Below are positions 4,157-32,266 of a DNA stretch of 38,450 bases, one piece after another. The stretch comes from an uncultured Pseudomonadota bacterium. GTDB lineage: Bacteria; Pseudomonadota; Alphaproteobacteria; RUG11792. The stretch lies in contig CACXNL010000007.1 in assembly GCA_902769055.1 (NCBI GenBank), positions 1 through 38,450 on the forward strand. The letters are read 5' to 3'. The notes beneath the pieces are model-generated. The model worked only from the letters and a program-made list of their open reading frames with translations. It made no database searches and was not told the origin of the DNA. The first letter of the stretch is position 1; each line of letters starts with the position of its first letter. Both the position numbers and the translations under genes were made by a program.

Positions 4157-5923
4157 TCATGAAAGCCTATTTACCGTTTGTTTTATAGCTTCTTTAAAAT
4201 TTGGAACAATGTATCCGAAAGCGTCATTGTATTTTTCAGCTGATGCCTTCTGCTGTAGTATATCTAGAAGTATACCGTTTGTGCCAGAAATCATCACGGT
4301 GGCATTGTGAGATTTTGCAATTTGCACAAGTTCCTTTAGAGAATCGAACGCCTCGTTATCAAAATATGGCACATTGTTGAAATATATTATAAGTATACGC
4401 GGAAATTTTCCTTGAGCAATTAGAGCTTCTTCAACAATTTTCGCAATGTTTAAAAATAAAATATTTGATACCTGAATGATTTCTATTTTATCGAGCACCG
4501 CTTTAGGAATATCCATTGAATTTGCAAATCCCTGTTTATTTTTTAAAAATTCCACCGCTCCCGAATCATGATTTCGCGTAGAGTGAACGTTTGCGTCTTT
4601 GATTTTTACCATTCGTTCGGCAAAGAAAACGCAAGAAATGGCAAATCCAATAATAGTGGCTGGAATAAAGCCAAAATAAATGCTAAGCAATAATGTGATC
4701 CAAAATATATATGTCTCCTGAGATTTTATATTAAAATACTGTTTTATTTGTCGATTAAATAGTTCTGAAACGGCATATACCAGCAAAATGCCGGAAAGAC
4801 AGTAAAGAGGAAGAAAACGCATGACTGTATCGTTATAATAGATAAGGATTCCGCATAAAATTGCTATGACCAATAGTGGAATTACAGTTTTTGCTCTAAA
4901 TTTTATGTTTTTTACCGAAAAGCTGGTATTAGGAGAAACAAATAATCCACCACATGCGACCGAAGCAACATTTGCAATTCCGCTGGCAATCAGTTCGGCG
5001 TTTGTTTGAAGCCTGTTGTCACCTGTCATGCTTGTTAAAACGTTTGTGCAAAAGCAAGCCTCACAGCCGATTATCAACGCAATAACGAAAGCATAATTTA
5101 TTGCATTCGCTAAAAAAGTTTGAGATGGACTTGTCCATGACATCGTCATCATATTATCCAAGGCAGATAGTCCAGATATCATTTCTTGTCCAACTGTTCT
5201 TATTTCAAATAATTCTGGAACTAGTCCAACACTGAACAGGTAACTTATTGCACATCCGATTACTAAATATGCAAAAAAAGGAAAGAAACCTTTAAAAAAC
5301 GACTTGAGTAAAATTATAGGAAGCAAAAATATCGCGGCTGAAAGCAATCCCGCTTTTGTTATGTTATCCAAATTTTCGTTAAATAATGAAAAGTTCTCTA
5401 AAATTTCTTGAGACGATTGGACTGTATTTATTCCAAGAATATATTGTAACTGTCCTACGATGATTGCCAATATAACATAGGTCGTAAGCGCGGAAATAAA
5501 TGCGTGCGAAATATGTCTTAAAACATTACTAATTTTTAAAACTCCAAACAGAATTAAAATTAACGCAACAAACAAGGCGGTATAAAACATTCCCTTATAC
5601 TGATACTTTGCAAAAATGTCAACTGCCAGTACACAAACCGGCAAGGCTACCGATGCTATCCGGTATTTTGCTCCTCCCAATATGGCTCCTATAAGCGCCA
5701 CTACCGCGCATGAGATTATTCCCTGGACAGGCATTCCCCCAGAAAAGAAAGCGAGAGAAAAAACTATTGGGAATAATAGTAAAAATATTTTTATTCCCGC
5801 AAAAATATCATTCAGCAGGAATTTCAAAGAATATCTTTCAACATATAAATTCAATATTGATGGACATAATTCAAGCCTTCTAATGAATTCAAGTTTCTGC
5901 GACATCCTTTGTGCTATGTTCAT
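4157..5923 (-). CDS. SulP-family anion transporter with C-terminal STAS domain
   Basis: A 588-aa inner-membrane carrier of the SulP (SLC26) family, whose members move sulfate, bicarbonate or other anions. The N-terminal two thirds hold many hydrophobic helices with a SulP-like beginning (DIFAGIKIFLLLFPIVFSLAF, then VVALIGAILGGAKYRIASVALP). The last ~120 residues form a STAS domain (ILIIYFNNVPYFDNEAFDSL). The substrate cannot be read from the sequence. I chose ATG at 5923 over the TTG at 5947, because a CtrA-type promoter (box 5976-5991, possible -10 near 5953-5958) would start transcription at about 5946, leaving the TTG outside or at the very edge of the message. The ribosome site is weak for either start. 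The gene converges on tssM with only 10 nt between stop codons. Confidence 0.88.
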   Translation of the reverse strand: MNIAQRMSQKLEFIRRLELCPSILNLYVERYSLKFLLNDIFAGIKIFLLLFPIVFSLAFFSGGMPVQGIISCAVVALIGAILGGAKYRIASVALPVCVLAVDIFAKYQYKGMFYTALFVALILILFGVLKISNVLRHISHAFISALTTYVILAIIVGQLQYILGINTVQSSQEILENFSLFNENLDNITKAGLLSAAIFLLPIILLKSFFKGFFPFFAYLVIGCAISYLFSVGLVPELFEIRTVGQEMISGLSALDNMMTMSWTSPSQTFLANAINYAFVIALIIGCEACFCTNVLTSMTGDNRLQTNAELIASGIANVASVACGGLFVSPNTSFSVKNIKFRAKTVIPLLVIAILCGILIYYNDTVMRFLPLYCLSGILLVYAVSELFNRQIKQYFNIKSQETYIFWITLLLSIYFGFIPATIIGFAISCVFFAERMVKIKDANVHSTRNHDSGAVEFLKNKQGFANSMDIPKAVLDKIEIIQVSNILFLNIAKIVEEALIAQGKFPRILIIYFNNVPYFDNEAFDSLKELVQIAKSHNATVMISGTNGILLDILQQKASAEKYNDAFGYIVPNFKEAIKQTVNRLS

Positions 5924-5975
5924 GTTTATACCATCACAAGCTCGCAATCCTCTTTCTAAATCCTAAGGTAAAATA

Positions 5976-5991
5976 GTTAATATTTTCTTAA
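5976..5991 (-). promoter_or_regulatory. CtrA-type box upstream of the SulP gene
   Basis: On the minus strand this reads TTAA-N7-TTAAC, the full CtrA consensus of alphaproteobacteria. It ends 52 nt before the ATG at 5923. The second half-site (TTAACT) could serve as the -35, with TAGAAA 16 nt downstream as a -10, as in known CtrA-activated promoters. The same arrangement occurs before the surface-protein gene at 31693-31708. The rest of 5948-6165 is AT-rich and I see no gene in it. Confidence 0.6.
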
Positions 5992-11248: not shown

Positions 11249-12387
11249 ACACACTTCTCAGTCAAGTAGCGAACTATAAGGTTCAGTTTCATAATCCCCT
11301 CATCCGTCAAAACCACATCATCGCCTTTGTGTATTATATACGAATTCGCGCGCAACTTCTTCAACTTGTTTTCTAGCCCATACTTCGCCTTTATCCTCTC
11401 GCTTATTATATCCAGCTTTATACCGAATTTCGAACGTAGTCCCATTATTAACCGCTCTTTAAATTCATCGTCCTCAGTTAGAACTTCCTCATCTAATGCT
11501 GGATTTTCAGTTTCCATTGCCCATTTTAACCATTTTTCGTTGTCCGAAACCTGCGCTATAGCTACCTTATGTCCATTGACAGTACACCGCGAATGCGCTC
11601 CAGCACCTATGCCATAATAATCTTCATATCGCCAATACGAAATGTTATGCTTACCATAATGCTTGTTCTTCGCAAAATTAGATACCTCATACATCTCAAA
11701 TCCATGACCTCTAGCTGTTTTTATTGTCGCTTCAAAAAATTCGCTGGAAGAGTCGGGCCTTGGAAGCATTCCAGCATCAATCATAGCTTTTAGTTTCGTA
11801 TTCGGCTCAACTATTAGCTCGTATAAGGAAATATGACTTATTGGATACTGCAAAACTTCCTCTAGTTCCTGTTTCCATCTTTGTAAATTTTGTCCTGGGC
11901 GATTGTATATCACATCAATGGAGAGATTATCGAAAATTTCAGCCATTTCAAAAACGCAATCTTTAGCTTCCTGCGCTGTATGAGTTCTGCCGAGCATTTT
12001 CAAATCACTATCGATTATTGATTGAACGCCTACTGAAAGCCTGTTTATGCCAGCACTTCGTAACTCCGTCGCCTTTATTTTGTCAATAGTTTTCGGATTA
12101 GCTTCAAGAGTTATTTCTACATTTGTATCCAAGTTGAAGGTGTTATTTATTTCATCCAAAATGCTGGCAATAAACCAGCTAGGCAAAAGCGATGGCGTCC
12201 CACCACCGAAGTATATGCTGATAATCGGCTCATTTTTATAAAATTTCTTTCTATAAAATTGCAATATTCTCTTATACGCATAGAACCATACTCTGTAATC
12301 CAAATCTTTGTTACAGGAGACACTATTAAAATCACAATAATGACACTTAGAAAGGCAATACGCCCAATGAATATATATCGTGCTCAT
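11245..12387 (-). CDS. hemW: Radical SAM protein HemW (coproporphyrinogen oxidase-like)
   Basis: A 380-aa radical SAM protein. The CxxxCxxC cluster motif is CLSKCHYC near the N-terminus, followed by the glycine-rich segment YFGGGTPSLL, LEANP, RLSVGVQS, and HNISYWRYEDYYGIGAGAHS, the HNxxYW signature shared by HemW and HemN-type proteins. Lack of the longer HemN N-terminal extension supports HemW, now regarded as a heme chaperone, over a true oxidase. It starts at ATG 12387, with 117 nt between it and the prmC stop, so it may be read through or have its own promoter; I see a TATACT-like -10 but no convincing -35. It overlaps surE by 4 nt. Confidence 0.92.
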   Translation of the reverse strand: MSTIYIHWAYCLSKCHYCDFNSVSCNKDLDYRVWFYAYKRILQFYRKKFYKNEPIISIYFGGGTPSLLPSWFIASILDEINNTFNLDTNVEITLEANPKTIDKIKATELRSAGINRLSVGVQSIIDSDLKMLGRTHTAQEAKDCVFEMAEIFDNLSIDVIYNRPGQNLQRWKQELEEVLQYPISHISLYELIVEPNTKLKAMIDAGMLPRPDSSSEFFEATIKTARGHGFEMYEVSNFAKNKHYGKHNISYWRYEDYYGIGAGAHSRCTVNGHKVAIAQVSDNEKWLKWAMETENPALDEEVLTEDDEFKERLIMGLRSKFGIKLDIISERIKAKYGLENKLKKLRANSYIIHKGDDVVLTDEGIMKLNLIVRYLTEKCV

Positions 12388-22113: not shown

Positions 22114-22409
22114 TAAAATTTCGATATACAGATTCTCTTTTCTCGCGATTTGTGACCGCGTTTTATTGAGATGTTTGATTTCGGCACGTTGAACATTTTT
22201 GCTAAAAATTCTATCAAAGCGATATTCGCCCTATTTTCAATTGGGCGTTCGTGTATTGCAATTTTAAGCGCCTTCCCATGCTCAGTCTCGATAATCCCAA
22301 GTATTTGCTCATTCTTAGCGCCAGGCACAAGGTATACCGAAAGCTCTACTCCGGATTTTGTCTCAGTGAGCAAATCGGTAGGTAATGTGCGCGATAAATC
22401 TTTAGGCAC
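22092..22409 (-). CDS. UPF0235/DUF167 (YggU-like) protein
   Basis: A 105-aa small protein of the DUF167 family, function unknown. The hallmark is RPIENRANIALIEFLAKMFNVPKSNISIKRGHKSREK. It starts with GTG at 22409, inside the cckA end (8-nt overlap), and has a perfect AAGGAGG ribosome site 9 nt upstream, so it is translated together with cckA. Its last codons and its stop are the antisense of tRNA-Thr(CGU): the TGA is read from the T-loop TTCAAGT. The final residues FYGAEEGT are therefore dictated by the tRNA, not by selection on the protein. Confidence 0.85.
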
Positions 22410-24771
22410 CTGATAAAACCTCCTTCACTTTTACTGCTAAATCCCGCAGAGAAAATGGCTTCTTCAGAAAATGTATATCCGAATTTTTGCTAACGTCCTG
22501 CTTGAAAGTATCCGCAGTGTAGCCCGATATGAAAAGAGTTTTTATGCCTGGCAATTTGTCTTTTATCATTTTGCTCAAGGTGGGACCATCCATTTTGGGC
22601 ATAATAACATCAGTTATCAACAAATCGATTTTCTCGTCATTCAGTATTTCCAGCGCTTCATCGCCACAAGCCGCTTCAATGACCTTGTACCCTTTCTCTC
22701 GCAAAGCTCGTGCTGAAAATACCCTTACCGGCTCTTCGTCCTCCACCAAAAGTATCGTTCCTGAGCCCCCCAAACCCGTCATGTCTGTTTTCTCTTCCAT
22801 TTCTGCCGGTTTTTCTGAACCGGTATATTTCGTTATGTATATTTTGAATGTCGTTCCACTTCCAAGCTCTGATTCAACGTCTATAAATCCACCAGCTTGA
22901 TTTATTATGCCGTAAACGGTTGATAACCCAAGTCCTGTTCCAGTTCCGGCTCTGTGCCGAATATTTTCATCTTTTCTTGAAAAGAACGGATCAAATATGT
23001 TCGGTATATCCTCTTGTGCTATTCCTTTTCCAGTATCGCTAATCTCAATCAGGACGTAGTCTCCAGGCTTAGCCGTGCCGTTCGCGCACATTAACGCTTC
23101 TTCTACATAAACATTATTTGTTTTTATTTTGATTTTTCCTTCGCCTTCAATCGCGTCTCTGGCGTTTATAACCAGGTTCATTATGACTTGTTCCAGCTGG
23201 TTTTCATCAATCTCTATACACCAGACATTTCGTCCATGTACTATCTGCAAGTCAATATCAACTCCGACTAAACGCCTTAATAGCGATGAAAGTTCAATCA
23301 AAATCTCGGTCACCGAAACAACTGTTGGCTTTATCGTTTTTTGTCTCGAAAATGCCAGCAGTTGCTTGACCAAATTTGCAGCTCTACTGGCGTTTTGCCT
23401 AATCTGCATGATATCGCCATACGACGGGTCGTCTTGCGTATAGCGCTGCAACAAAAGGTCACAAAATCCAATCATCGCAGTTAAAAGATTATTGAAATCG
23501 TGCGCAATTCCTCCCACCAATAGACCGACCGTTTGCATTTTCTGTGACTGAAGGAACTGCTTCTCCAGCCCCTTTTGCGTAGTGACATCCACTATCTGTA
23601 TGAGCAAACGGTTCTTTTCTATTCTGCTGATACAAACTTTTGCTATTGCAGCTCCGCCATCGAATTTGAGCTCTAGCTGCTGTGTATTACTGCTATGTTG
23701 TAATGCTTGTTTTATATGCGATGCAAAATCGCAATCTTCACCCTTTATGAATTCGCAAATATCAGCCCCAACCTGTACTACCTTACTTCCTTCCACGATG
23801 ACTTTATCCTGCGCCATTGACGCAAAAGCGGGGTTTAATGAAATTATTTCTCCAGTTTCTGTTGTTATAACGGATGGTATTGGAGAAGATGTAAAAATAT
23901 CAGTCGTAATCCCTGCATCGTGCGATCTGATAATATCAGCACTATTTGCCTTATAAATTACCCACGGGGTTGTCGAAAATGTGCTTCCCATAGATGATTT
24001 TGCAAGAATTGCCGAAAAACTTCTGGCGAGCCTGGGCTTTATTACAACGCTAACTTGCTTTTGCTGTACATTATCGCTATTAAAATCTTCTATGAATTCA
24101 CCAATGTTTACGCCAACCAACTCGTTTTTATGCGCATTAAGTAAATTGGCAAAAGTAGTGTTAGCTCCGAGAATTTCTCCGGAATTGTTTATATAAAATA
24201 TCCCAAATGGAAAATGGTCGATAAAATTTTCGAGTTTCTCGTAATTCGCAGAGTTTTTTTCCGCTTCTGCAAATTGCTTTGAAATATCACTAATCGTTAC
24301 GACAGAAATACTTTCTCCAATCAATGAATTCTGTTTATCCAGTGTATTTATTGTCGCAAGCCACTTCTTAAATTGATTGTGCAGTCCTGAGCCAGAGCCG
24401 GAAATTGTAGTGTGGCAAGGCGTTCCTGTTTCGAAAAACTTGCAAAAATTTTGATAATTCGGAGACGCCGTAACTCGCGTAGAAAGATTTTGCAGAAACT
24501 CCTCTTTGTCCCCGTATAGTTGCGGATGAGTAGTATATATGACATCATCACTTTCATCAAACGCAATGACTTCGTGGTTTCTGGAAAGGGCTTTAGAAAC
24601 GTCCCTTACGATGTTGAGGAAGTATTCAGCGGAGCGTAAATTTCGTCTCGCCCTGATATACATCCCAAAAACGGATATTAAAATCGCAACTGATACAATA
24701 CACCAAAATATAGCATTTGGCAGCAGCACCTTAACGAACAACTTCCACAAAGTTTCCAGAATTTCCAGCAA
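22402..24771 (-). CDS. cckA: Hybrid histidine kinase CckA
   Basis: A 789-aa kinase/phosphatase at the top of the CckA-ChpT-CtrA phosphorelay that controls the alphaproteobacterial cell cycle and surface genes. One membrane helix is near the N-terminus (LLPNAIFWCIVSVAILISVF). Two PAS-like regions follow (about 180-245 and 300-400). His424 lies in GGIAHDFNNLLTAMIGF, the CckA-type H box; the ATPase domain has MNLVINARDAIEG, SDTGKGI and GTGLGLSTVYGI. A C-terminal receiver carries Asp721 (LLITDVIMPKMDG). I chose TTG 24771 because GGAGG lies 6 nt upstream and it begins just before the membrane helix; the frame upstream of it is antisense to the nupC copy. ctrA and chpT are not in the window. Confidence 0.92.
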   Translation of the reverse strand: MLEILETLWKLFVKVLLPNAIFWCIVSVAILISVFGMYIRARRNLRSAEYFLNIVRDVSKALSRNHEVIAFDESDDVIYTTHPQLYGDKEEFLQNLSTRVTASPNYQNFCKFFETGTPCHTTISGSGSGLHNQFKKWLATINTLDKQNSLIGESISVVTISDISKQFAEAEKNSANYEKLENFIDHFPFGIFYINNSGEILGANTTFANLLNAHKNELVGVNIGEFIEDFNSDNVQQKQVSVVIKPRLARSFSAILAKSSMGSTFSTTPWVIYKANSADIIRSHDAGITTDIFTSSPIPSVITTETGEIISLNPAFASMAQDKVIVEGSKVVQVGADICEFIKGEDCDFASHIKQALQHSSNTQQLELKFDGGAAIAKVCISRIEKNRLLIQIVDVTTQKGLEKQFLQSQKMQTVGLLVGGIAHDFNNLLTAMIGFCDLLLQRYTQDDPSYGDIMQIRQNASRAANLVKQLLAFSRQKTIKPTVVSVTEILIELSSLLRRLVGVDIDLQIVHGRNVWCIEIDENQLEQVIMNLVINARDAIEGEGKIKIKTNNVYVEEALMCANGTAKPGDYVLIEISDTGKGIAQEDIPNIFDPFFSRKDENIRHRAGTGTGLGLSTVYGIINQAGGFIDVESELGSGTTFKIYITKYTGSEKPAEMEEKTDMTGLGGSGTILLVEDEEPVRVFSARALREKGYKVIEAACGDEALEILNDEKIDLLITDVIMPKMDGPTLSKMIKDKLPGIKTLFISGYTADTFKQDVSKNSDIHFLKKPFSLRDLAVKVKEVLSGA

Positions 24772-24788
24772 AGCACGCCTCCGACCAA

Positions 24789-24830
24789 ACCACAAGTGGT
24801 ATTTCCATGTTATCAGAAATTCACAAGTGA
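24789..24830. promoter_or_regulatory. Paired palindromes in the cckA/nupC divergent region
   Basis: ACCAC-AA-GTGGT (24789-24800) and TCAC-AA-GTGA (24821-24830) share the core CACAAGTG (24791-24798 and 24822-24829), exactly 31 bp apart, about three helix turns. They lie in the 100-bp gap between the divergent cckA and nupC starts. This is the usual layout of two operators bound on one DNA face. The regulator is unknown. Confidence 0.45.
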
Positions 24831-25377
24831 TTGACGCACATGATGTTATACTGAACATTGAGGATTGCGTATTGGTGGACGTGAATGTGGTAAGAGCTGT
24901 CGTTGGATACTTTGTGTTTCTCGTTGCATCCATGTTTTTAGCTGAAGAATCAAATATGAAGTTAAATCGCAACTGGAAACCGATTGTATTGGATATTTTG
25001 TTGCAGATTTTCCTGGCATTTGCACTCACTAACTTGCCTGTGTGTATTTCGGCTATTGAATGGATGGCGAGAGGAGTTACGAAGATTAGCGAGGCAACTG
25101 CGGAGGGAACTAAATTCTGTTTTGGATATATTGGCGGCGGGGATTTGCCATTTACTGTTAAAGAAAACGGAAAAACTTTTGTCTTTGCTTTTCAGGCACT
25201 TCCGAGCATTATATTAGTCAGTGTTTTGTCCGCTGTGTTGATGTATTTCAAAATTCTCCCCATTTTATCGAAAATCGTCGGGTATGTTCTTAAATTTGTA
25301 TTTAATATCAAATTACATATCGGAATGTTTGCAATAGCAAGAATTTTCATAGGTCCACAAGAAAACCTTTTTTTTAA

Positions 25378-25385
25378 TCAAAAAC
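25378..25385 (+). repeat. T8 tract at the nupC copy 1 frame break
   Basis: Eight T in a row; seven would restore the reading frame through the conserved EAPLLIK-like motif. Confidence 0.8.
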
Positions 25386-25772
25386 AAACTAAATGCCCTA
25401 ACAAAATCCGAAACATTTATTATATTATCGCTAGCATTTGTGACATCCTCAGCAGGAAATATGCCTGTTATTGCAAATATTTTATCTGAAGTGTGTCCAG
25501 ATGCGTTGAAACATATTATAACAGCCTCAATTTTAAATATAATATCTGTCTTGATACTTGCTCGAGTTGCCATGCCAACACAAGATAGCGTAGTTGATGA
25601 AAAATTCGATATTTCTGAAGAACTCAATCATCCAAATTTAATGAGCGCGATATCACAAGGATTATCTGATGGCTTGAATACTTGGTGGCGTGTTGTTGGT
25701 TCGCTCATTGGCGTAATTGCACTCATCTATATTATAAACTATACTTTAGTTTTATTACTAAATTACTTGTTC

Positions 25773-25782
25773 GGGGGGGGGG
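25773..25782 (+). repeat. G10 tract in nupC copy 1
   Basis: Ten consecutive G coding for a Gly triplet in an otherwise AT-rich gene. Copy 2 has no such run at the matching place (FPNVAGAPITLQ). Length changes here would switch the frame of the last third of the protein. Confidence 0.8.
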
Positions 25783-26214
25783 CTATTACGTTGCAAAAAC
25801 TGTTTGGATTTATTATGCACCCAGTTGCTTGGCTAATAGGGATAGATACGCAAGATTTATATCAAGTCGCGCAAATAATTGGAACTAAAATAGCGGTCAA
25901 TGAAACAGTAGCATTTTCCGACTTAGCCAAGACTTCAATTTCTCAAATTGATATGACAAAAACAATTTATGCAATATGTAATTTCGGAAACTTTTCTACG
26001 CTAGGAGCAACGATTAGTTCAATGATGACACCTGCCCCAAAAAATAGTTGGACTTCTGGAATAATTGGAAAAGCATTCATTTGCGAACTTTTGGCAACAG
26101 GACTTTCGACTGCGATGATAAGCATAATTCTTGAAGTGACGGAATAATATGTTTGAAGGCACAACATAAAGTGTTGTACCATTCCTCAGAGCCTTAATCG
26201 TTTTGGATAGCTTG

Positions 26215-27465
26215 ATGTTAAGACCAATAATCGGATACTCCTTGTTTCTCACAGCTTCAGCTTTTCTTTGTGGGAATTTTCGTGATATTTTGCAAAAACG
26301 AAATTGGAGACCGATTGTATTTGGCATCCTGTTCCAGGTTCTCGTAGTTTTCGCATTCACGAACTTGCCAGCTTGTGTTTCGGCTATCGAGTGGGTCGCT
26401 AATGGAGTTATGAAGCTCAAGGACGCGACTATCGAAGGCACGAAGTTCTGCTTTGGCTATATCGGTGGCGGAGATTTGCCATTTAATCTGAAGGAAAACG
26501 GCAGCGCTTTCGTGTTTGCGTTCCAAGTCTTACCCACCATTATTTTGGTAAGCGCGTTATCTGCTATGCTTACATATCTAAAAATTTTACCAATTTTAGC
26601 GAAAATTATCGGATACGTATTCAGAGTAGTGTTCAATGTCAAATCATATATTGGGATGGTTGCTGCAGCGAAAATTTTTATAGGACAACTGGAGGCGCCG
26701 CTCCTGATAAAGAGCAAGCTGAATACGCTTCCTAAATCGGAGATGTTCGTTGTCCTGGCGTTAGCATTTGCGACGGCATCTGCCTCAGTTATGCCGATAT
26801 ATGCGACAGTACTGGCGCCGGTTTGTCCAGATGCTATGAAGCATATAATCATTTCATCGGTCTTAGGTGTTATTTCGGTTTTAATAGTTGCTGCAATAGC
26901 TATGCCTTCTGAGAGCAATATTGCTGAAGACATCAGTGATACATTCGAGGCAAGCGAACACAAAGGCTTTATGGGAGCTTTGTCGAAAGGTTTGTCTGAT
27001 GGTTTGTTTGTTTGGTGGTGTATAGTCGGTTCGCTCATTGGAACAATCGCGTTGATTGCGCTGTTTAATTATGTTTTAGAATCGTTTCCAAACGTTGCCG
27101 GAGCGCCGATAACATTGCAGCGAATATTTGGCGTATTTATGTATCCATTTGCTTGGCTTATGGGCATACAACCGCAAGACTTGTCGGCGATTTCGCAAAT
27201 ACTGGGTACCAAAATGGCAATAAACGAGACCGTGGCGTTTTTTGACTTGGCGAAAGCGGCAGTATCGCAGGAAAGCGTAGTCAAGACCATATATGCGATA
27301 AATAATTTCGGCAATTTCTCGGCTATTGGAATAACTATAGGCGGTATGAGTGCCCTGGCGCCTGGTAACAAGAGCATCGCTGAATTGGTCGGGAAAGCGT
27401 TTATAGGTGGCTTTTTGGCTACCGGGCTATCGGCAACGCTGGCAAGCATTTTCTTTGCAATATGA
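26215..27465 (+). CDS. nupC: NupC-type nucleoside transporter, copy 2 (intact)
   Basis: A 416-aa inner-membrane nucleoside symporter of the CNT family with about ten hydrophobic helices. Family motifs are complete: GTKFCFGYIGGGDLPF, IGQLEAPLLIKSKLNTLPKSEMF, GTKMAINETVAFFDL and INNFGNFSAIGITIGGMSALAP. It should import ribo- or deoxyribonucleosides, which host-associated bacteria take from the host. ATG 26215 is the likely start; TTG 26203 in frame is possible, and both have weak ribosome sites. It ends 10 nt before the acyl-CoA synthetase gene, so the two should share a message. Confidence 0.9.
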   Translation: MLRPIIGYSLFLTASAFLCGNFRDILQKRNWRPIVFGILFQVLVVFAFTNLPACVSAIEWVANGVMKLKDATIEGTKFCFGYIGGGDLPFNLKENGSAFVFAFQVLPTIILVSALSAMLTYLKILPILAKIIGYVFRVVFNVKSYIGMVAAAKIFIGQLEAPLLIKSKLNTLPKSEMFVVLALAFATASASVMPIYATVLAPVCPDAMKHIIISSVLGVISVLIVAAIAMPSESNIAEDISDTFEASEHKGFMGALSKGLSDGLFVWWCIVGSLIGTIALIALFNYVLESFPNVAGAPITLQRIFGVFMYPFAWLMGIQPQDLSAISQILGTKMAINETVAFFDLAKAAVSQESVVKTIYAINNFGNFSAIGITIGGMSALAPGNKSIAELVGKAFIGGFLATGLSATLASIFFAI

Positions 27466-30010: not shown

Positions 30011-30661
30011 AGACATACCCCTAAATTTCACCGCGTACATGGTATCACCTTCTATAAACCATCTACAACTCTCCAATCTCTAAATCTAATTTTGAAATTC
30101 ACTGAAAAACACCTTCATTACTCAAATTTAAGTGTTACGCCGTTAGAGAGTGACAAACGTTTTAGAGCTCTTAAATATCCACCATGTTCTACGGTAACGT
30201 TGTTAGATAATGTATGGTTTTCCGTGCCTGAAAAAATCAATGTTCCGTTCGCCTTGATATATATGTTAGTTTGCGGGAGCGAAGCTGTATTGTTTAAAGT
30301 AATATTCGTATTTTTAGTTCCATCACCAACTATAAACAATTTTTCGTTAAATTCTGAATTGTCGCCGGATAATGTAATCGTTCCTGTTAATTGCAAATTC
30401 GCTGGATAATACCCAATGCCAGAAACCGTTTTATTTATTAGAGCTCCCGAGATAATTCTATTAATTCCATCAGCGACTACCGTTTGATTGGGAGTGTTCA
30501 TCCCAATGTATGCCGCATCGTTAGAAGTAGCATTGAATAATTCACTGAAATCGAAGCTAATTTCTTCCGAGAATTCAGCCCCTGAAAGCTGAGCGGACCC
30601 CACATTTCTCAAACTTGTTGAAAGACCTGGCGTCCCATACACAGTGTAAACTTTGTCGGCG

Positions 30662-30669
30662 CCCCCCCC
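30662..30669 (-). repeat. C8/G8 tract at the surface-protein frame break
   Basis: Eight C on the plus strand (G8 in the coding sense). A tract of 7 or 10 would fuse the leucine-rich part to the beta-helix part in one 500-residue protein. Confidence 0.85.
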
Positions 30670-30749
30670 GCGCGCTTATAATGGGCTTTGAATCATCGTC
30701 TGTTTCCTCGAAGCTAAAGAGGTAATTTCCGATAATCCTCATATTATAT

Positions 30750-31210
30750 TTTGCATTACTAAACATATTTGTATAGCTACTTGGGACTACAAACGTTCTC
30801 GATACTCTCAATTCTGCTAAAGCTGAACAATCTGCAAACATTCTTGCTGTACTAGATAAAGCACTTGTGTCAAAGTTACATAAATTCAATGTTTGTAATC
30901 CGTAACAATATCTGAACATTCCCTCCATATTTGTAACTCTACTTGTGTTAAAACCACTCAAATCTAGTGTCGTTAAACTGGCACATCTGGAAAACATACC
31001 ATTCATAGTTGTTACATTAGCAGTATCAAGTCCGCTAAGACCCAAAGAGGTCAGACTTACACAACCGCGAAACATAAGTTTCATACTCGAAACATTACTT
31101 GTGTCAATATCATCTAGATTTACAGAAGTTAGTCTAAAGCAGTTATAAAACATATTTTCCATGCTGGTTGCGCTGGATGTATTTGCGCCGCGTAAATCAA
31201 TTCGCGTCCT
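30750..31210 (-). repeat. Tandem leucine-rich repeats (24 residues, about 72 bp)
   Basis: Repeat pattern L-x-L-x-x-x-D-T-S-x-V-x-x-M-x-x-M-F-x-x-C-x-x-L, seen five times clearly and a sixth time in degraded form. The nucleotide copies have diverged, so the array is old rather than recently expanded. Boundaries are approximate. Confidence 0.75.
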
Positions 31211-31692
31211 CGATATTTTGTTTGACGTATCGTAGTCAATTTCATCTCCGCACTCCGCGAACATATCCGAGAGATCGTTTGGAAACGTCACGTACTTAGT
31301 TTCTCCGGTGCTTTCGTCTATTGACGGTTGGAACTCCAACTCAACGTTCAATGCGGAATATGAGGAAGAGCTATAAGTATCCCAATAAAACGCTTTCTTT
31401 ACCACGCTCACTTGGTTGCCATTCACAAGCGCTGGTATGACAAACTTTACAGTACCTCCAGTATTTCCTGACTTAGGTAGGCACGTGGATATATTGTATT
31501 GTGAGGAACCAGCGGTAAACTTAAGGTAGTTATTACTGGAATTATTGTTTGTATTCGTGCATCCATTAAATACAATCGTCGTAGCGCTACACGATGCTAT
31601 AGATGACATAAACGCCAAACTTTTCATCAAAGTATTCATAATTTTCGCTCAACCAAAATTTCCAACTCACAATATTATTATTCCGGAAAATC

Positions 31693-31708
31693 GTTAATAT
31701 TTCGTTAA
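31693..31708 (-). promoter_or_regulatory. CtrA-type box upstream of the surface-protein gene
   Basis: Reads TTAA-N7-TTAAC on the minus strand, 53 nt before ATG 31639. It matches 14 of 16 positions of the box before the SulP gene. The proximal half-site TTAACG can double as -35, with TATTGT 17 nt downstream as a weak -10. Confidence 0.62.
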
Positions 31709-31842: not shown

Positions 31843-31848
31843 ACCGAT

Positions 31849-32245
31849 GTGGCAATTGGTTGGTCGCTGAAAGTGCAAATCTTTCAGAGGAAAGTCCGGG
31901 CTTCATTGTAAGCAAGGTGCCGGATAACGTCCGGCGTTGCGGAGCGAGAGGTCTGCAATAGGGCTAGTGCAACAGAAAGTATACCGCCTTGGAGCCTTAA
32001 AAGGTTTTAAGGTAAGGGTGAAATGGTGATGGTAAGAGCTCACCGCGTTGCTGGTAACAGTAATGGCATTGTAAACCCCACCTGAAGCAAGACCAAATAG
32101 GGATGACGCGAATACCTTTCGTGATCGCTTACAGTCACAGTCATCCGGGTAGGTTGCTTGAGCTTGTTGGTAACGGCAAGTCTAGATGAATGACCAAACA
32201 GAGGGTATAATATCCTTGGACAGAACCCGGCTTATAGGTTGCCAC
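31849..32245 (+). ncRNA. rnpB: RNase P RNA (bacterial type A)
   Basis: The catalytic RNA that trims tRNA 5' leaders. Conserved blocks are in order: GAGGAAAGTCCGGGC (31887-31901), the AGGGCTAGTGCAACAGAAAG region (from 31961), GGTAAGGGTGAAATGGTG (32011-32028) and ACAGAACCCGGCTTA (32220-32234). The ends pair as helix P1, GTGGCAA (31849-31855) with TTGCCAC (32239-32245). Length of about 397 nt is normal. A run of six T follows at 32250-32255, so P1 plus the T run may end transcription. Confidence 0.96.
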
Positions 32246-32266
32246 ATAGTTTTTTGTAGGTGATGT

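Follow-up and report, generated by a model that had tools for sequence, protein, structure and literature searches.

The window, by which is meant the whole stretch of 38,450 nucleotides analysed here, carries on its reverse strand a gene for a leucine-rich-repeat (LRR) surface protein and another for a SulP-family anion transporter, each preceded by a CtrA-type box and a -10-like element (Table 1). The box ahead of the LRR gene, which reads GTTAATATTTCGTTAA on the forward strand, lies 53 nt from the ATG at 31637-31639, as a preliminary description of this DNA had stated, and comparison of the letters bears out its further claim of 14 identities in 16 with the transporter site (read as GTTAATATTTTCTTAA), which lies 52 nt from the ATG at 5921-5923. 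The LRR protein matches both Pfam DUF285 (1.5e-28) and TIGR02167 (4.4e-29). The same description had placed cckA in the window, and a gene for which CckA is the best model is indeed found there, with HisKA, HATPase_c and receiver domains according to Pfam; CckA is the kinase with which the CtrA phosphorelay is expected to begin. The DNA belongs to a small-genome Holosporales bacterium, a gut symbiont with relatives in the rumen and the termite gut. The closest named relatives of its CtrA are those of an alphaproteobacterial MAG from goat rumen (82% identity), of rumen MAGs and of Holosporales MAGs whose isolate labels are taken to denote termite gut.

Table 1. Features of the window and of box-bearing and poly-G loci elsewhere in the genome (L, locus; C, contig).
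Feature	Position or locus	Strand	Remarks
SulP-family anion transporter with STAS domain	4157..5923	-	Pfam Sulfate_transp 1.1e-30
-10-like TAGGAT, SulP promoter	5960..5965	-	conserved spacing in alignment A1
CtrA-type box TTAAGAAAATATTAAC before SulP gene	5976..5991	-	sister of LRR box
CckA hybrid histidine kinase	22402..25029	-	NF046020 best model, E 1.1e-158, below lineage cut-off
ORF continuing LRR protein in another frame	30118..30642	-	C-terminal part like that of L008 paralogue
LRR surface protein (DUF285 / TIGR02167 PARCEL repeat)	30575..31639	-	354 aa as assembled, signal-like N-terminus
G8 tract, frame break in LRR gene	30662..30669	-	register lost after tract
-10-like AATAAT, LRR promoter	31677..31682	-	conserved spacing, columns 27-32 of alignment A1
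CtrA-type box TTAACGAAATATTAAC	31693..31708	-	TTAAC-N6-TTAAC direct repeat, 11-bp period
DUF285 LRR proteins with box	window, L008, L009, L010		this genome
MscS-type channel with cyclic-nucleotide domain and box	L007		this genome
dCache sensor with box	L018		this genome
Solute-binding proteins with box	L020 and related frameshifted L012		this genome
Secreted proteins with box, no family assigned	L003, L005, L006, L014, L015, L019, L024, L208
Conserved 220-aa protein with box	L013:791-1450; relatives L116, L141		68-91% identity to first
G/C tracts of at least 8 in reading frames of box genes	window 30662-30669; L188:2103; L178:7931; L244:1674		frame lost at several
Poly-G promoters in this genome (G000)	C3:42504, C3:62453, C3:64256, C4:9813, C4:29801, C4:38507, C4:74679, C4:91410, C6:57364, C14:4272

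The preliminary description held that two matches with equal spacing were unlikely to arise by chance, and on the window data alone this does not stand. The window contains three copies of TTAA-N7-TTAA where shuffled sequence would give 3.16, the third copy (at 11448) lying inside a gene, and no enrichment was found in the genome (807 kb searched, 76% complete, 20 contigs), with 63 occurrences against 67 in the reversed control. Because the bare skeleton is at expectation in the window and equal to the control in the genome, the two window sites are by themselves insufficient, and the bare skeleton was dropped as evidence. A genome search allowing at most two mismatches gave close matches to the box that cluster ahead of start codons. 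The preliminary description had also proposed that the 16-mer be sought upstream of starts throughout the genome and its hits examined for a preference for secreted or membrane proteins, and here its expectations were upheld: the refined 16-mer, TTAACRAAANATTAAC, has 10 copies against none in the reversed control, every copy is followed, 50-64 nt downstream, by an ATG in the same orientation, and nearly all the genes behind them encode a signal peptide or membrane segment. Equal scatter over coding and intergenic DNA is seen for the bare skeleton and not for the refined 16-mer. Spacing was compared in 258 kb of stretches, picked around sites of interest together with controls and so biased in site density, although the distance distribution for each spacing should be free of this selection bias. 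An ATG-initiated reading frame 44-66 nt downstream was found for 21 of the 104 strand-sites with N7, compared with 15/258 for the other spacings (N2-N6 and N8-N15; Fisher p = 9e-5), and the peak is specific to N7, with 0/32 at N6 and 0/28 at N8.

The anatomy of these promoters was established from a gapless alignment of 26 of them (A1). No variation is seen in columns 1-4 (TTAA) or 11-16 (ATTAAC), and column 5 is C and column 28 is A in at least 90% of the sequences. The box consists of two direct repeats of TTAAC (TTAAC-N6-TTAAC) with a period of 11 bp, and a -10-like block, TAnAAT or TAGACT, occupies columns 27-32. If this block is the -10 element, the box would lie at about -38 to -23, near -35 as a full site does: in Caulobacter the 5' base of full CtrA sites is near -35, or at -39 in the case of ctrA P2 (PMC4287350), and the CtrA consensus has been quoted as TTAA-N7-TTAAC (PMC9791040). 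The two half-sites, 11 bp apart, face the same side of the helix and would accommodate a dimer of CtrA around -35 in a promoter activated by it; the -10 element would follow some 10 nt beyond the box, and the distance from box to start codon is 50-64 nt.

The box is not confined to this genome (G000). A profile of the box plus the -10-like element (R1), itself trained on 26 of the same sequences, gave 193 sites at E<=0.01 in 32 of the 35 genomes of the family set, 19 of them in this genome, whilst the reversed profile (R2) gave one site in the 35. The R1 total is swollen by repeats in G005 (27 sites) and G041 (17 sites, probably also from a repeated element) and stands at 149 without these two genomes. 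Matches outside the training set precede signal-peptide genes (L208, L209, L261, L264, L269-L273 and others). The 23 exact boxes of G005 do not count as evidence for a large regulon, the copies inspected being one repeated element. This element, of approximately 180 bp, combines the box with a TATAAT-like element and a stretch rich in GC (L117, L126, L132, L136, L140, L267) and is perhaps a mobile promoter or small-RNA element. The box is retained ahead of the SulP orthologues of five genomes from several genera (this one, G006, G012, G035 and G036), although the flanks are not visibly alike, and ahead of the 220-aa protein in G000, G001 and G013, again with divergent flanks.

At least 20 genes genome-wide make up the box-gene set and most encode exported or membrane proteins (Table 1). 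Weaker TTAA-N7-TTAA sites, at 47-58 nt, precede further genes with hydrophobic N-termini (L339, L346, L348, L351, L354, L355). The bias to exported and membrane proteins looks real, but was gauged with a crude hydrophobicity index (cut-off 2.0) in place of a signal-peptide predictor; 7 of the 27 window reading frames pass this test, as do 58 of 152 in stretches enriched for such genes by design, and the window LRR protein, with a score of 1.7, falls below the cut-off. The 220-aa protein has no Pfam or NCBIfam match and no signal peptide, and its predicted structure has a pLDDT of 29. Promoters of ftsZ, dnaA and ctrA were not recognised among the box matches of this incomplete genome. A gene that resembles TssF of type VI secretion in appearance begins on the far side of the box-bearing secreted gene L003 (C5:1-3500). 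As to the CtrA regulon of envelope and surface genes that had been proposed, a regulon sharing the box at a fixed distance is upheld and CtrA is its deduced factor.

CtrA is nonetheless well supported as the protein that would bind the box: this agrees with the motif and its geometry, with a genome that encodes both ctrA and cckA and with the box-bearing genomes in which CtrA alone was found. The product of locus L002 is best matched by the CtrA model NF045991 (316.6 bits, the next model scoring 171), although the Rhodobacter-centred cut-off of 350 is not reached. A search with PF00486 found one or two OmpR-type regulators in each family genome except G012, CtrA and the PhoB/OmpR-like L001 in the present one; in G012, which gave none, tblastn picked up a fragment of ctrA at the end of a contig. 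In several box-bearing genomes, G006, G044 and G046 among them, CtrA is the only OmpR-type regulator found; for loci L286-L288 we infer the genome assignment from hit-list order. CtrA is the best candidate because the family genomes have at most two regulators of this type and the genera with CtrA alone keep the box. Some observations count against it. A search for ctrA in two box-bearing genomes, G002 (94% complete) and G008 (100%, in approximately 120 contigs), was negative, only the second OmpR-type regulator being found; loss through assembly gaps is likely in G002, since other members of its genus have ctrA, and may also account for G008. TTAA-N7-TTAA is also absent from the 400 nt upstream of ctrA in this genome, and a full site is found upstream of ctrA at 4 of 21 loci in relatives. 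ChpT was detected with PF10090 in 0/35 family genomes, although CtrA is common across the family and the same model finds ChpT in Caulobacter, and a diverged ChpT is possible. ChpT is part of the textbook relay and is not required for a CtrA box.

Several explanations have to be weighed before the box is attributed to CtrA. Were it a chance product of AT-rich intergenic DNA, the bare skeleton would show just the lack of enrichment that it does show in window and genome, but the 10 copies of the refined 16-mer against none, the 193 profile sites against one, the sharp distance peak that is missing at neighbouring spacings and the retention of the box ahead of orthologues leave this explanation with hardly any credibility; chance is refuted for the box class as a whole, and one weak site could still be due to it. 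It is just as improbable that rnpB (RNase P RNA, 31848-32250, forward strand), and not the LRR gene, is the target of the box near 31.7 kb. The box does lie in the intergenic region that the two share, 140 nt upstream of rnpB, but its orientation, its -10-like element and its distance from the start codon all fit the LRR gene. In L008 the paralogue of that gene is preceded by the same box, and no rnpB was noticed next to it.

Marginally better placed, though still very improbable, is the idea that the box is no activator site at all and forms an extended core promoter, in which a spacer follows a -35-like TTAAC and which is read by the housekeeping or another sigma factor in a class of secreted-protein genes. 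Fixed orientation and a fixed distance to the -10-like element are what such a promoter would have, but half-sites one 11-bp turn apart with a conserved centre typify a response-regulator dimer, the spacer from the first TTAAC to the -10 element would be some 20-21 nt, and another class of genes in the same genome has a normal TTGACA -35 element. The alternative that deserves most attention, unlikely as it is, accepts the box as a real regulator site and assigns it to the second OmpR-family regulator, L001, which is PhoB/OmpR-like and possibly CenR-like. L001 is encoded here and its counterpart is the sole regulator of the type found in the box-bearing G002 and G008, and in Rhodobacter the genes under CenR are mainly those of the envelope (PMC9275681). 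Against this, the second regulator was not found in G006, G044, G046 and other box-bearing genomes, the published CenR motif is TGA-N8-TGA (PMC9275681) as opposed to TTAAC-N6-TTAAC, and the known CtrA motif fits exactly. We put the probability that the site is a CtrA-binding box at the -35 region of a promoter that CtrA activates, a reading drawn from sequence comparison, at about 0.8.

A possible second layer of control is associated with homopolymeric G/C tracts, of which there are 26 of at least 9 in the genome compared with about one estimated by chance. The frame of the window LRR gene is broken after a G8 tract (Table 1), L010 (L188, G11) and L012 (C9) have frame breaks at similar tracts, and in L008 a G9 tract leaves the frame intact. 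A separate class of approximately ten genes has promoters in which TTGACA (in one case TTGACG) is followed by 5-8 nt, a run of G6 to G23 and an AGAATT-like -10 element, the G23 case adjoining an N run and being uncertain. These promoters are mostly about 36 nt ahead of the ATG of members of a related signal-peptide family, several of which have weak DUF285 matches, and it is likely that they are phase-variable. Switching of tract length is something we infer from one assembly, in which homopolymer error is possible. Elsewhere in the window, two overlapping forward-strand reading frames (24539-26147), which precede a nucleoside transporter gene (26203-27465), have the appearance of a single gene interrupted close to a T8 tract (about 25368-25375); a G10 tract lies at 25773-25782, within the same region.

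CtrA is best known for cell-cycle regulation, and the targets identified here suggest that in this organism it may control what the cell shows to its host. CtrA would activate the box genes and signalling through CckA would set the timing of a surface set comprising LRR proteins, the SulP transporter, solute-binding proteins, a dCache sensor, a mechanosensitive channel and secreted proteins. More tentatively, and with the balance of judgement slightly against it, the CtrA of this Holosporales family may have been rewired to the host-facing surface, with ChpT undetected and no autoregulatory full site, the LRR genes being subject in addition to G-tract slippage and a sister family being driven by poly-G promoters. 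If this were true, timed and random surface switching would be split between gene families. A CtrA-type promoter class can be read from sequence in a lineage that is uncultured and has genomes close to 1 Mb in size, and its targets point to the host interface; it yields candidate symbiosis factors, many without known function, and offers a testable case of regulatory rewiring.

No such regulon is described in the titles or abstracts of the papers retrieved by a literature search on Holosporales and CtrA. PmrA of Legionella and Coxiella, also of the OmpR family, has a direct repeat containing TTAA and governs numerous host-directed proteins, but it is gammaproteobacterial and its secretion route and exact motif are unlike those here; a literature search on the PmrA motif found no match. 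The CenKR system of Rhodobacter resembles the present case in that envelope proteins predominate among the targets of an OmpR-family regulator, and differs in its TGA-N8-TGA motif and in activating sites that lie upstream of the -35 element (PMC9275681). The full CtrA sites of Caulobacter (PMC4287350) share the motif skeleton, the position near -35 and the presence of CckA and CtrA in the same genome. The differences are that the targets here are mainly exported and envelope proteins, that there is no full site at ctrA whereas ctrA P2 of Caulobacter carries one, that ChpT was not detected and that strong constraint is seen at the box centre (CRAAANA). Ehrlichia chaffeensis is, like the present organism, an obligately host-associated alphaproteobacterium, and its CtrA, which is produced late during growth inside the host cell, controls infection-related genes and activates the surface protein gene ompA (PMC9791040). 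The order and the target genes differ, and the box of E. chaffeensis gst lies between -181 and -166 relative to the start codon (PMC9791040), compared with the near-uniform 50-64 nt here. Since the E. chaffeensis regulator is expressed late inside the host cell and activates ompA (PMC9791040), it is reasonable by analogy to suppose that surface display in this lineage may vary with growth stage.
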